From positions 1 through 7,261 of the forward strand of contig JAJZUH010000097.1 of NCBI GenBank assembly GCA_021847165.1: 7,261 bases of DNA, written 5' to 3'. Shown piece by piece: positions 1 to 5,220 of the stretch. The stretch is from Pseudomonadota bacterium. Lineage in GTDB: Bacteria > Pseudomonadota > Gammaproteobacteria > Burkholderiales > Gallionellaceae. The notes under the pieces are model-generated. The model was not told the origin of the DNA. It did not search any database and saw only the letters and a program-made list of their open reading frames with translations. Made by a program: the position numbers and the translations under genes. Each line of letters opens with the position of its first letter. The stretch's first letter is position 1.

Positions 1-644
1 ATGCGGCCATGATACTCGGCATCACCCGCGTCAAATCGGTCGCCGTCGGCATCGCCGTCATGTCCGCGCTGAATCGGCGCCCGAACGGAAAGCTCAGCAT
101 CGAGCATCTCTGGCTGCACAGCCTGGGAATTGCGCTGGCAATGTGCGCCCTGGCTCATGGCATGCCCAGCGGCAAGCGCCCGCTGGACGACGAGATCTTC
201 TTCGCCGGACTGTTGCACGACATCGGCTTCATGGTGCTCAACCATATCGACCCGGCAAGCAGCGATCTGCTGCAAATCAGGCTGACGACGGAAATCGGCC
301 GGCCCATCGGCGAAATAGAAGCGGAACTGATCGAGATCGGACACGGCGAACTGGGCGCCGAACTGGCACGCCACTGGGATCTGCCCGATGATATCGTGGC
401 CGTGCTGCGCCACCACCACGACGACCCCGCCGAAATGGCGGCGGGCACCGCACGAACCGTGTCCTCCCTGCTCCATCTGGCGGAGAAGCTGTTGCCGGCA
501 TTCGGCATCTCCGAGCACGTGGAGCCGGATATCGGCACACAGGACTGGCTCTTGCTGGGGATCGATCCGGCTCGCAGCGAAGAGCTGGCTGCATCCGCCC
601 GCGCGCAGGCGGAACACGCACGGCAGATCGCATCGACTTTCTGA
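1..644 (+). CDS. HDOD-domain signalling protein, 5' end cut by the window
   Basis: The frame is open from base 3 and ends in TGA at 642-644. The first ATG (9) is not the true start. The residues before it (Ala-Ala) and after it align with residues 77 onward of the next gene, so about 76 N-terminal residues lie outside the window. Visible are a Trp-Leu-His-Ser motif, the LHDIG motif carrying the HD pair, a GHGELGAELARHW segment and a RHHH segment, all typical of HDOD domains. HDOD proteins are degenerate relatives of HD phosphohydrolases. They act as cytoplasmic signalling or scaffold proteins, often linked to c-di-GMP, chemotaxis or stress control; the ligand cannot be read from sequence. The gene is roughly half identical to its downstream neighbour (judged by eye) and 25 bases upstream of it, so the two look like a tandem duplication in one operon. 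Confidence 0.9.
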   Translation, partial: AAMILGITRVKSVAVGIAVMSALNRRPNGKLSIEHLWLHSLGIALAMCALAHGMPSGKRPLDDEIFFAGLLHDIGFMVLNHIDPASSDLLQIRLTTEIGRPIGEIEAELIEIGHGELGAELARHWDLPDDIVAVLRHHHDDPAEMAAGTARTVSSLLHLAEKLLPAFGISEHVEPDIGTQDWLLLGIDPARSEELAASARAQAEHARQIASTF

Positions 645-669
645 ACAACGACGAACCAGGCACCTCGAC

Positions 670-1533
670 ATGAACACACCCATCGACCTCCGCCAAGCTG
701 TCCGCAACCTGAATTCGCTGCCGGCAATGCCGCTCATCGCGCAAAAACTGATGTCGCTGAAACTGGACAGCGAGGAAGGCGAAAAGCAGATGCTGCTGCT
801 GATCTCGCAGGACCCGATGATCTCGGCCAAGATCATCGGCCTGGCGAACTCGCCGCTGCTCGGCGCCTCGCGCAAGATCACGGCGATCAATGACGCGGCC
901 ATGCTGCTGGGGCTGACCCGGATCAAATCGGTCGCCACCGGCATCGCCGTCATGTCGCTGGTGAGCAAGCCCATCGGCCGTTTCGACCCGCAGGAACTCT
1001 GGCTGCACAACATGGGCGTCGCCTTTGCCATGCTGCCGGTGGTGCGCGCCATGCCGGCGAAGAACCGGCCGCAGGACGACCTGATTTTCCTCACCGGCAT
1101 GTTGCACGATATCGGCTATCTGGTACTGGCGCACCTGGACACCCGGCGCAGCGACGACCTGCACACCCGCTTCGTCATCGAGCCGGACCGGCCCGCCATC
1201 GAGATAGAACGCGAATTGCTGGAAATGACGCACGACGAGCTGGGCGCGGAGCTGGCGAAACACTGGAACCTGCCAAGCGAGATCGTCACCGTGCTGCGCT
1301 ACCACCACACACCGGAAGCGGCAGGGGCCGCCGAGGGACAGCCATTGGTGCGCATCGTCAACATCACGGAGAAGCTGCTCCCCCCGCTCGGCATCCGCGA
1401 GTTTGTCGGAAACCAGGTCGCGGCAGAGGAATGGACAGCGCTGGGAATCGACCCGGATCGCGCCGAAGAGATTGCCGAGCAGGTCGTGGAACAGGCCAAT
1501 CAGGCGGCACAGTTCACCAACTCGTTCAGCTGA
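670..1533 (+). CDS. HDOD-domain signalling protein (second tandem copy)
   Basis: A 287-residue protein, the usual size for a single-domain HDOD protein. ATG 670 is chosen because it starts at the canonical HDOD N-terminus (LPAMPLIAQKLMSL at residues 17-30). The open frame further upstream only overlaps the previous gene. The ribosome-binding site is weak, so translation may depend on coupling to the upstream copy. The HDOD core covers about residues 15-215: His113 in a WLHN motif, His146-Asp147 in LHDIGY, His188 in THDELGAELAKHW, and Tyr-His-His at 211-213. Several metal-ligand positions of HD enzymes are therefore kept, although HDOD proteins are generally thought to be non-hydrolytic. The C-terminal 60 residues resemble those of the first copy. 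The stop codon overlaps the end of the opposing CZB gene by 8 bp. The family is clear; the specific role is unknown. Confidence 0.92.
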   Translation: MNTPIDLRQAVRNLNSLPAMPLIAQKLMSLKLDSEEGEKQMLLLISQDPMISAKIIGLANSPLLGASRKITAINDAAMLLGLTRIKSVATGIAVMSLVSKPIGRFDPQELWLHNMGVAFAMLPVVRAMPAKNRPQDDLIFLTGMLHDIGYLVLAHLDTRRSDDLHTRFVIEPDRPAIEIERELLEMTHDELGAELAKHWNLPSEIVTVLRYHHTPEAAGAAEGQPLVRIVNITEKLLPPLGIREFVGNQVAAEEWTALGIDPDRAEEIAEQVVEQANQAAQFTNSFS

Positions 1534-2164: not shown

Positions 2165-3298
2165 ATGAAATTTGTCCTGTTGTTTCTATTCGCACTGATA
2201 CCGACGCAGGTATTCCCTCAAGAACCAGTCTCATCCCCGCCCATCCTTGCCGCCAGTTCCTATGCGCTGTACGACTACACCAGCGGACAGTTTCTGCTGG
2301 AACAGAATGGCAACGCGCGCATCCCGCCCGCCCACCTGACCAAACTGATGACCGCCTACGTCGCGTTCGGCGCGATCAAGCAAGGCAAGCTGTCGCTCGC
2401 CCAGCGGCTCATCCCCTCGGCTTACGCGACACGCACGCTGGCCGACGAACCGCGCATGTTCCTGAATGCGGGCAAGGCAGTGACCGTGGATGACCTGCTG
2501 CACGGATTGATCGTGCAGTCTGCCAACGATGCGGCGCGCGTGCTGGCCGAAACGCTGGCCAACCACGAGATGGCGCTGGCCGACATCATGAACGCAGAGG
2601 CCCAGCGGCTGGGACTGAAGGACACGCATTTCGTCAACGCCACCGGCGCGCCCGAAGCGCAGCACTACAGCAGCGCGCATGATCTGGCATTGCTGGCCGC
2701 CGCCATCGTGCGCGACTTTCCCGAGCTCTATCGCCTCTATGCGCAACGCGAATTCCAGTACGGCGGCATCAACCAGTTCAACCGCAACCGCCTGCTCTGG
2801 CTCGACCCGTTCGTGGACGGCCTGGCGGCGAGCAACAACGAAGCGGAAGAATTCGACCAGGTTGCTTCCGCCAGGCGCGATGACCACCGCCTGATCTCGG
2901 TCGTCATCGGCGCCGCCACCGATAAATTGCGCAGCAGCGAAAGCCAGCGGCTGCTGAACTACGGCTTCCAGGATTTCGAAACCATCAGGCTCTATTCGCG
3001 GGATCAGGCCGTCAGCGCCAAGCACATCTGGAAAGGCACATCCAACCAGCTCGACATCGGCTTCAGCGCCGACCGCTACCTCACCATCCCCAAAGGCCAG
3101 CGCAACGCGCTCAAGGCGACGCTGGAAACCCGGCAGCCGCTGCTGGCCCCGATCGACCGCGGCCAGCAGATCGGCACGCTGCACCTCAGCCTCGACGGCA
3201 AACCTTATCTGGATCTTCCCGTGGTTGCGCTGGACGATATACCATTGGCAAACGTATTCTCGCGCGGCATCGACAATATCCGCCTGCTGTTCCAGTAA
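2165..3298 (+). CDS. PBP5-type D-alanyl-D-alanine carboxypeptidase homologue lacking catalytic residues
   Basis: A 377-residue member of the DacA/DacC (PBP5, peptidase S11) family. Intact members trim the terminal D-Ala from peptidoglycan pentapeptides in the periplasm. ATG 2165 is chosen because it opens directly into a signal peptide (hydrophobic core at residues 3-12). The SxN motif is present (Ser119-Ala-Asn121), as are the PBP5 C-terminal beta domain and an amphipathic anchor-like end (FSRGIDNIRLLF). The SxxK motif, however, reads His57-Leu-Thr-Lys60, with histidine (CAC, 2333-2335) in place of the acylating serine. The KTG motif after VDGL reads Ala221-Ala222-Ser223 (2825-2833). Sequence on both sides of each site is well conserved and the frame is intact, so decay by frameshift or an assembly error is unlikely. 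Predicted: a non-catalytic murein- or protein-binding paralogue. The symbol dacC is withheld because activity is doubtful. Confidence 0.88.
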   Translation: MKFVLLFLFALIPTQVFPQEPVSSPPILAASSYALYDYTSGQFLLEQNGNARIPPAHLTKLMTAYVAFGAIKQGKLSLAQRLIPSAYATRTLADEPRMFLNAGKAVTVDDLLHGLIVQSANDAARVLAETLANHEMALADIMNAEAQRLGLKDTHFVNATGAPEAQHYSSAHDLALLAAAIVRDFPELYRLYAQREFQYGGINQFNRNRLLWLDPFVDGLAASNNEAEEFDQVASARRDDHRLISVVIGAATDKLRSSESQRLLNYGFQDFETIRLYSRDQAVSAKHIWKGTSNQLDIGFSADRYLTIPKGQRNALKATLETRQPLLAPIDRGQQIGTLHLSLDGKPYLDLPVVALDDIPLANVFSRGIDNIRLLFQ

Positions 3299-3387
3299 TC
3301 GGGCCAGGGTTGCGCGTGCATGGTTGCAGGCTGAAGTGCAAGGAATGAACCAGCGCGGTGCCGCGATCCGCCCGCACAGTGAACCTA

Positions 3388-3395
3388 CAGGGAGA
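3388..3395 (+). promoter_or_regulatory. Ribosome-binding site of the D-amino-acid aminotransferase
   Basis: CAGGGAGA ends five bases before ATG 3401 and fixes that start. No promoter or terminator was seen in the 102-base gap after the PBP5-like gene, so read-through from it is likely. Confidence 0.65.
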
Positions 3396-3400
3396 GCCGC

Positions 3401-4267
3401 ATGACCATCTATCTGAATGGCGCTTTCATGCCGATCGAGGAAGCCAGGATATCGGTGCTCGATCGCGGCTTCATCTTCGGCGACGGCGTGTACGAAGTCA
3501 TCCCGGTGTATTCGCGCCGCCCCTTCCGCCTGGCGGAACACCTGCAACGCCTGCAGCACAGCCTGGACGGCATCAAGCTGAAGAACCCGCACAGCGAGCG
3601 TGAGTGGACCGCCATCCTCAGCGAACTCATCGAACGCAACGCCCAGGATGGCCGCAATCAAGACCAATACCTTTACCTGCACATCACGCGCGGCGTCGCC
3701 AAACGCGACCATGCCTTCCCGAATCCGCCCGTGCCGCCCACCGTCTTCCTGCTGAGCAACCCGCTCACCACACCGCCGGCCGAACTGCTGCAAAGCGGCA
3801 TCGCCTGCATCACGGTCGCCGACAACCGCTGGCTGCGTTGCGACATCAAGGCCATCGCGCTGCTGCCCAACGTGCTGCTGCGCCAGGCAGCCGTCGAAGC
3901 GGGCTGCGCCGAGGCCATCCTGATCCGCGACGATGCCTTCCTCACCGAAGGCGCGGCGAGCAACATCTTCGTGGTGAAGAACGGCAAACTGCTGGCACCG
4001 CCCAAGGACAACCTCATGCTGCCCGGCATCACCTACGACGTCATTCTCGAACTCGCCGCAGCCAACGGCATCCCGTACGAGGTGCGCCGCGTGACCAAGG
4101 CGGAAGTGCTGGGCGCCGACGAACTGCTGCTGACCTCCAGCACCAAGGAAGTGCTCCCCATCACCCAGCTCGACGGCAAACCGGTAGGCAACGGCAAGCC
4201 CGGCGCGATGTTCGCCAAACTCCATCCGCTCTATCAGACCTTCAAACGCGAAGTGATGCGCAAATGA
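3401..4267 (+). CDS. dat: D-amino-acid aminotransferase (PLP fold type IV)
   Basis: A 288-residue class IV aminotransferase, the usual length. It interconverts D-alanine plus 2-oxoglutarate with pyruvate plus D-glutamate in the cytoplasm, linking the D-amino acids used for peptidoglycan. The PLP-binding lysine is Lys150 in the RCDIK motif, followed by LLPNVL. Glu183 in the TEGAASN segment is the expected contact to the pyridine nitrogen, and SSTKEVLPI near residue 250 is the phosphate-side motif. The Arg102-x-His104 pair (KRDHAFP) corresponds to the carboxylate-binding Arg/His of Bacillus D-amino-acid transaminase. That pair favours this activity over branched-chain aminotransferase or 4-amino-4-deoxychorismate lyase. 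The stop codon overlaps the ybeD start (ATGA), so the two are translationally coupled. The family is certain; substrate specificity is likely. Confidence 0.88.
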   Translation: MTIYLNGAFMPIEEARISVLDRGFIFGDGVYEVIPVYSRRPFRLAEHLQRLQHSLDGIKLKNPHSEREWTAILSELIERNAQDGRNQDQYLYLHITRGVAKRDHAFPNPPVPPTVFLLSNPLTTPPAELLQSGIACITVADNRWLRCDIKAIALLPNVLLRQAAVEAGCAEAILIRDDAFLTEGAASNIFVVKNGKLLAPPKDNLMLPGITYDVILELAAANGIPYEVRRVTKAEVLGADELLLTSSTKEVLPITQLDGKPVGNGKPGAMFAKLHPLYQTFKREVMRK

Positions 4268-4533
4268 TCGACCCCAAAGATTCCCTCATCGAATACCCCT
4301 GCGATTTCCCGCTCAAGATCTTCGGCGCGACGCAGCCGGATTTTGCCCAGGCCATCGCCAAAGTGGTGCTGGCGCACGCGCCGGATTTCGACAGCGCCAC
4401 CATCGAGATGCGCAGCAGCAGCAATGCGAAATATCTCAGCCTCACCTGCACCATCCGGGCCACCTCGCGCGAACAGCTCGACAACCTGTACCGCGACCTG
4501 ACCGCGCATCCGATGGTTAAAATGGTGCTCTGA
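4264..4533 (+). CDS. ybeD: YbeD/DUF493 family protein
   Basis: An 89-residue protein. The length, an acidic N-terminus with the YPCDFPLKIFG motif and an ending on HPMVKMVL are characteristic of the YbeD (DUF493, UPF0250) family. The fold is a small ferredoxin-like, ACT-resembling domain. A regulatory role near lipoate metabolism has been suggested because the gene usually sits directly upstream of lipB, as it does here; its biochemical function is not established. The ATG lies in an ATGA overlap with the aminotransferase stop, so it is probably translated by re-initiation, and no separate ribosome-binding site is needed. Confidence 0.9.
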   Translation: MIDPKDSLIEYPCDFPLKIFGATQPDFAQAIAKVVLAHAPDFDSATIEMRSSSNAKYLSLTCTIRATSREQLDNLYRDLTAHPMVKMVL

Positions 4534-4572: not shown

Positions 4573-5220
4573 ATGCAACATCCCGCCATACACATCAAGG
4601 CACTGGGCCAGGTCGAGTACGAACCGACCTGGCGCGCCATGCAGCAGTTCACCGCCGAACGCACCGCCGATACCGTGGACGAGATCTGGCTGTTGCAGCA
4701 CCCGCCCACCTACACCCAGGGCCAGGCAGGCAAACCGGAACACCTGCTCAACTCGGCCGGCATCCCCGTGGTGAAGATCGACCGCGGCGGGCAGATCACC
4801 TATCACGGTCCCGGCCAGATCGTCGCCTACCTGCTGCTCGACCTGCACCGGTGGAAGATCAACGTGCGCGAACTGGTCCGCCTGATGGAACGGGCCGTCA
4901 TCGACCTGCTGGCCGAATACGGCGTCGCGGCAGAAGGCCGCGAAGACGCGCCCGGCGTATATGTCGGCGACGCCAAGATCGCCGCGCTGGGCCTCAAGAT
5001 CAAGCATGGCTGCAGCTATCACGGCCTGTCGCTCAATGTGGACATGGACCTGTCGCCGTTCGACAACATCAACCCCTGCGGCTACGAAGGATTGCGCGTC
5101 ACGCAATGCATCGAGCTCGGCATCACCATCCCGATAGAAGAACTGCAGGCGCAGCTCACGCAGAATCTGGTGCACGGTTTGCAGCGCCACCTCGACAGCA
5201 AGCGCCGGCTGGAACAGTGA
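4573..5220 (+). CDS. lipB: Octanoyl-[acyl-carrier-protein]:protein N-octanoyltransferase
   Basis: LipB transfers octanoate from acyl-carrier protein to the lipoyl-domain lysine of target proteins such as pyruvate dehydrogenase E2 and glycine cleavage H protein. The product is the substrate for the sulfur-inserting LipA. The protein has 215 residues, a normal length. It carries the [12 protein letters not shown] motif at residues 71-82, the catalytic lysine Lys135 in [10 protein letters not shown], the SYHGLSLNV segment at 148-156, and the acyl-accepting cysteine Cys169 in the NPCGYEG motif. AAGGA eight bases upstream supports ATG 4573. It follows ybeD after 39 bases. lipA, which often follows lipB, is absent, and the next feature is a regulatory region for ihfB. 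Confidence 0.96.

Follow-up and report, generated by a model that had tools for sequence, protein, structure and literature searches.

The dacA gene of the window analysed here, a stretch of 7,261 nucleotides from a bacterium of the Gallionellaceae (assembly GCA_021847165.1, contig JAJZUH010000097.1), encodes an orthologue of penicillin-binding protein 5 (PBP5) in which histidine (His57) takes the place of the acylating serine of the SxxK motif and Ala-Ala-Ser (residues 221–223) that of KTG, and this gene has remained under purifying selection across a clade. We propose, and give the proposal about an even chance of being right, that window DacA is a selected pseudoenzyme, retained as a structural, non-cutting partner of the peptidoglycan machinery and anchored in the membrane. 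The protein is predicted to undergo no acylation, to have no carboxypeptidase activity and to be unable to trim D-Ala-D-Ala. The host genome (1.85 Mb, 69% complete; the window is its contig C35 in our survey) would belong, as placed by its relatives, to a Sideroxydans-type genus of the family, hereafter the genus.

Motifs and orthology of window DacA

A preliminary description, made from the letters of the window alone, had assigned the protein to the PBP5 family, and both domains bear this out, since the Peptidase_S11 profile scores 184.9 bits on the protein against a cut-off of 27.6 and the PBP5_C domain is likewise well above its own (Table 1). A PBP5 fold is predicted with confidence (alignment of 79 sequences, the window protein plus 78 of 240 database proteins), the protein has a signal peptide, and a C-terminal amphipathic anchor helix is predicted. 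The two motif replacements lie, to the base, where that description had placed them, and the flanks, the SxN motif, the signal peptide and the anchor are retained as it had said. Of the three motifs of an active S11 PBP5, SxN is present, and the acylating serine and KTG are absent.

The DacA protein of G004, a single-contig genome, is identical to that of the window, the two genes differing at 10 bases, all silent, and this identity together with a similar change in S. lithotrophicus ES-1 rules out an assembly error or frameshift. The gene order dacA-dat-ybeD-lipB is also found in genera with an intact dacA, and window-type and intact dacA are therefore orthologues; hidden paralogy is ruled out by this shared locus.

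The changes extend beyond the catalytic residues. Among the best-listed 120 of 7122 database matches (the near set), 11 positions differ that are at least 95% conserved in 77 intact family proteins, and four of these (57, 221, 229 and 231) sit at active-site motifs or in the KTG loop, where A228 and G229 have given way to mostly acidic residues and C231 is changed. The 77 proteins were chosen from 89 family rows outside the genus, so that Ser and Lys are fully conserved in them by construction, and the rows left out were g3 (1 row), g29 (4 rows) and 7 rows that lacked a motif or were mis-binned, divergent or second copies. Positions conserved to at least 95% number 197 in the near set vs 121 in the intact set, a comparison that is no test because the near set is less diverse.

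Stepwise losses in the genus

The survey covers 139 rows of the DacA-locus protein. Of these, 119 come from 117 family genomes, out of 149 that matched dacA, and the remaining 20 represent other families of the order. Within the genus 30 of 34 genomes were read; G003, G019 and G024 gave no match at 1e-30 and G026 matched in pieces only. Lys221 is absent in 30/30 genus rows and missing in only 7 of the 109 others (retained in 102), which is therefore more than chance. Residue 57, covered in 29 genus rows, is Ser in 16, His in 7, Gln in 4 and Ala in 2, and the cultured S. lithotrophicus ES-1 (P0017; G028) has Gln at this position (AQLTK) and ATG at 221–223. The near set retains Ser57 in 13 proteins and Lys221 in none, residue 221 being Ala in 117 and Thr in 3. 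In Sulfuricella-like proteins (best 120 of 8000 matches), Lys is found in 120/120 and Ser in all 118 that cover it.

In a FastTree tree with local support values, built with the motif columns removed and without three rows (the partial L032, L128 and L129), the genus is monophyletic (support 0.998) and split into two subclades. In the first, Lys has become Gln and Ser is mostly retained, the exceptions being G012 and G002, the latter also lacking K60; in the other, which holds the window, Lys has become Ala or Ser, and within the window branch, ES-1 included, Ser has become His or Gln. When residues are scored as kept or lost, one loss of Lys at the base of the genus suffices, and a single ancestral loss would be the simpler, if unproven, reading. 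Parsimony places one change of Ser to His in the window branch after G030 diverged, followed by His to Gln twice. Lys was lost before Ser in this branch, because G030 is without Lys and still has Ser. Judged from these sequences, then, the loss is stepwise and genus-wide, which the preliminary description had not foreseen, nor had it foreseen the sister subclade with QTA or QTS and a mostly retained serine.

The third motif of that sister clade (e.g. L017–L027, L029–L031, L110, L111) is well kept as QTA or QTS, an unusual form that could reflect an altered specificity. Among the best 120 of 7861 matches in a third database search, 88 proteins were new; 81 of them carry Gln at residue 221 and the other 7 carry Ala. 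Of the 81 proteins with Gln, 79 have Ser at position 57, one has Ala and one a gap.

Motif changes outside the genus are scattered. Lys221 alone is lost in G035, G062, G068, G163 and G058, and Ser alone in G123. Both catalytic residues are gone from L125 (G162, genus g36), which reads AALTK, SAD and EIG. The seventh row without Lys221 is L033 (G135:C109), a genus-type dacA contig that falls within the genus in the tree and lies in a 5% contaminated genome that belongs to a different genus; it is probably mis-binned, or less likely transferred. In G027 (G027:C14:19858-20981, L032) dacA is broken over two reading frames, by error or by a real break.

Selection, proposed role and alternatives

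Selection was estimated with a codon model in our own code (M0, F3x4) rather than a standard package; for the three clades compared, the fits drew on 10 of 12, 7 of 17 and 7 of 7 members respectively. The ratio of nonsynonymous to synonymous rates (dN/dS, omega) is 0.111 in the clade lacking Ser and Lys, compared with 0.099 for g37, an intact genus, and 0.091 for the QTA clade, so that a protein whose catalytic residues are gone has retained purifying selection, and a fit with omega = 1 is poorer by 572 log units. Only the KTG loop (residues 216–234) is clearly relaxed, its omega of 0.197 being about five times that of the intact genus (0.036); in the QTA clade the loop is fairly constrained (0.087). 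The rest of the protein is near intact-genus constraint, with values of 0.026 vs 0.022 for motifs 1 and 2, 0.096 vs 0.079 for the S11 domain and, with wide errors, 0.035 vs 0.056 for the anchor (residues 356–377). The low omega, the poor fit of omega = 1 and the silent-only differences to G004 rule out recent decay as the main cause. The preliminary description had held that recent decay would be marked by intact orthologues at this locus combined with relaxed selection; the former exist in other genera, and the latter was not found, except in the KTG loop and for a slight increase overall.

In the mechanism that we put forward on these data, the KTG lysine would have gone in the ancestor of the genus and the serine later, in one branch; PBP4, a short S11 paralogue or a PBP7-like protein would then trim pentapeptides instead. 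The retained role may lie with the membrane anchor and the folded body of the protein, in contacts with wall synthases or other D,D-peptidases. We place it outside the cleft since body and anchor are still constrained and the clearly relaxed part is the KTG loop. In E. coli, PBP5 is reported to self-interact, and the mutant PBP5(S44G) to act through its presence (PMC5596342).

Several observations weigh against this proposal. The scaffold role is deduced from where constraint remains. K60 and S119 do not vary within the near set despite the lost nucleophile, and a pure scaffold needs neither unless they are structural. A joint fit gives an omega of 0.117 in the clade vs 0.094 in the rest (likelihood-ratio statistic 6.66, p about 0.01), and the stem branches have 0.256 (statistic 32.7), a rough value since synonymous sites have probably reached saturation on deep branches, and one compatible with some relaxation; taken with the low omega within the clade, it suggests a faster phase on the stems followed by ordinary constraint. 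The PBP5_C domain is under no extra constraint (0.134 vs 0.117 in the intact genus), and the neighbouring dat is held more tightly than dacA in the Ser/Lys-less clade (0.070, compared with 0.084 for the QTA clade and 0.092 for g37). If the residues at 221 are distinguished, separate changes of Lys to Gln, Ala and Ser within the genus are as parsimonious as a single loss. Finally, inactive PBP5 in E. coli is described as harmful and not useful (PMC2909392, PMC4916385).

The main rival, which we regard as rather unlikely, is that the inactive cleft might bind D-Ala-D-Ala stems and so guard pentapeptides from trimming or compete with active D,D-peptidases, in the manner proposed for E. coli PBP6a (PMC4916385, PMC5596342). 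In its favour, K60 and S119 are retained in 120/120 and N121 in 113/120 proteins of the near set, and the equivalent of E. coli R248 is kept in 97/120 of them and in 29/30 genus rows. However, this Arg is lost in the remaining 23/120, the KTG loop is the very part that is relaxed, and the mean net charge of residues 217–236, which is about −1 in intact genera but −2.7 for the QTA clade and −4.1 for the 12 window-clade rows, would disfavour a carboxylate. PBP6a itself, moreover, retains its active-site S66 and forms an acyl-enzyme with ampicillin (title of PDB 3ita). Binding of D-Ala-D-Ala peptides had been among the roles suggested in the preliminary description. Its broader claim, a selected non-enzymatic role, gains from the old clade-wide loss, the synteny with intact orthologues and an omega near that of the intact genus; the binding role is now less supported, because dN/dS in the KTG loop is about five times that of the intact genus and the Arg is kept in only part of the near set, which points to a role outside the cleft.

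It is also possible, and in our view unlikely, that the ancestor shifted its specificity as KTG became QTA with Ser kept, and that the window branch later lost the residual activity and is alone a pseudoenzyme. The sister clade would fit such a history, with Gln in 81 of the 88 further proteins, Ser in 79 of the 80 Gln proteins that cover position 57 and a fairly constrained KTG loop. The Lys of KTG is, on the other hand, generally required for substrate binding and turnover, G012 and G002 show that Ser has gone from the QTA clade as well, and the present role of the window protein would be left unexplained.

A rebuilt cleft is, we think, distinctly improbable: K60, S119, His/Gln57 and the acidic NE-x-EE loop would make up a site peculiar to this clade, for binding or for catalysis, whose periplasmic ligand would be a different one, perhaps a cation, and, if so, the protein would be a neofunctionalised PBP5 descendant in iron-oxidising bacteria. 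Slow decay of a dispensable gene, still present because too little time has passed or because its loss would have polar effects on dat, is very improbable. In its favour are the slightly raised omega, the relaxed loop, the sporadic absence of Lys or Ser elsewhere in the family (G035, G062, G068, G123, G162, G163), the three genus genomes without a match (all <90% complete) and the gene in two frames in G027; against it are an overall dN/dS of 0.11, 10 synonymous and 0 non-synonymous differences to G004, and a signal, fold and anchor retained across the clade.

The proposed structural pseudoenzyme can be set beside known systems. E. coli PBP5 (DacA) has the same Peptidase_S11 and PBP5_C domains, from which the window protein differs in its His for the acylating Ser, its AAS for KTG and its acidic KTG loop. 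PBP5(S44G) is likewise a Ser-less PBP5 whose presence affects cell shape (PMC5596342, PMC2909392), and in the latter report it is more evenly spread in the envelope and fails to complement; it is, however, a laboratory point mutant changed only at Ser44 and harmful in E. coli, whereas the window protein is natural, has lost the two motifs and is maintained by purifying selection. E. coli PBP6a (DacC), acylated as noted above, differs in having its serine. The 'evolved' PBP homologue Rv2911 of M. tuberculosis (title of PDB 4p0m) was ruled out as a precedent for a dead S11 enzyme: all three motifs are present and the serine is modified by phenylmethylsulfonyl fluoride, with no sign there of a dead enzyme (PMC4281109). 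Pseudoenzymes as such are already known, but the open-licence literature searched yielded no PBP5 orthologue that has lost both motifs and is nevertheless conserved in a whole clade. Inactive PBP5 has so far been studied as a laboratory mutant; here evolution would have produced one and conserved it in a clade, with a cultured carrier in S. lithotrophicus ES-1, which would offer a natural separation of the structural from the catalytic roles of PBP5. Public records of the motif-changed proteins (P0017, P0020 and P0085 among them) carry the names beta-lactamase or D-Ala-D-Ala carboxypeptidase; going by their motifs, these labels are likely wrong on activity, and homology alone may mislead the inference of penicillin targets.

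Other peptidases and the dacA locus

The preliminary description had raised the matter of a second, intact DacA or DacC. Elsewhere in the genus there are, with gaps, intact copies of PBP4, of a short S11 paralogue and of a PBP7-like protein. The S13 profile (PBP4) is above its cut-off in 29 of the 34 genus genomes, a 30th match (G031) being weak and falling inside DacA itself, and the PBP4 motifs are intact in 5/5 loci read. The short S11 paralogue was counted, by frame length and identity, in 24/34 genomes, with intact motifs in 17/17 loci read (16 in the genus and one in G035; L158 has KSG), and the motifs of the PBP7-like S11 protein are intact in 4/4. The short paralogue was not found in G004, G015, G020 and G023, each 99% complete, which leaves dependence on it unsupported, and in G020 an S13 match was not found either; the replacement trimmer would therefore vary between species or be missing. 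The 69%-complete genome of the window yielded, apart from window DacA, just the PBP7-like S11 protein, and no S13; G004, with its identical DacA, also carries PBP4. VanY-type peptidases, matched in 1 of 20 genomes (14 of them in the genus) and there outside the genus, are ruled out as the replacement. YkuD L,D-transpeptidases are present in 14/14 genomes searched. The PBP4 gene at G028:C1:201916-203316 and the S13 genes of G005, G011 and G003 match the S13 profile in two pieces, between which lies about 80–100 bp of extra sequence in one open frame.

Table 1. Positions of dacA, its parts and the neighbouring genes in the window.
Feature	Position	Strand	Basis or remark
HDOD-domain gene	9..644		first of two in tandem
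HDOD-domain gene	502..1533		second of two in tandem
dacA/PBP5 orthologue, 377 aa, catalytically degenerate	2165..3298	+	open reading frame with ATG at 2165; Pfam PF00768 and PF07943; structure prediction
Peptidase_S11 (transpeptidase-fold) domain	2234..2917	+	PF00768, 186.4 bits on the contig
Motif 1, HLTK (residues 57–60) replacing SxxK	2333..2344	+	His57 codon 2333–2335; Lys60 retained
Motif 2, SAN (residues 119–121)	2519..2527	+	SxN retained
Motif 3, AAS (residues 221–223) replacing KTG	2825..2833	+	
Loop after motif 3, NNEAEE (residues 224–229)	2834..2851	+	acidic in the window subclade; intact relatives mostly HTESAG or HTETAG
Arg256	2930..2932	+	presumed equivalent of E. coli PBP5 Arg248 (E. 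coli numbering)
PBP5_C domain, residues 271–359	2975..3241	+	PF07943, 73.1 bits, cut-off 21.2
C-terminal helix, residues 364–375, predicted membrane anchor	3254..3289	+	DSSP on the structure model
dacA-dat spacer	3299..3400		
dat, D-amino-acid transaminase-like class IV aminotransferase	3401..4267	+	PF01063, 174.4 bits
ybeD-like gene of the conserved block	4264..4533	+	tblastn synteny; name carried over from the preliminary description
lipB, octanoyltransferase	4573..5220	+	NF010922, 317.3 bits, cut-off 235

Downstream of dacA, dat begins within 400 bp in 29/30 genus rows, the gene reaching the contig end in the 30th (G001). The scores of Dat with the NCBIfam D-amino-acid transaminase models are under their cut-offs. 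The dacA-dat spacer is about 105 bp long in the window and in G004 and about 12–15 bp in many relatives of the genus, and the differences between the window and G004 cluster partly in it. Upstream of dacA, HDOD genes are found in many loci; the tandem pair of the window is common to several relatives, and some sister-clade loci have their HDOD match on the opposite strand.
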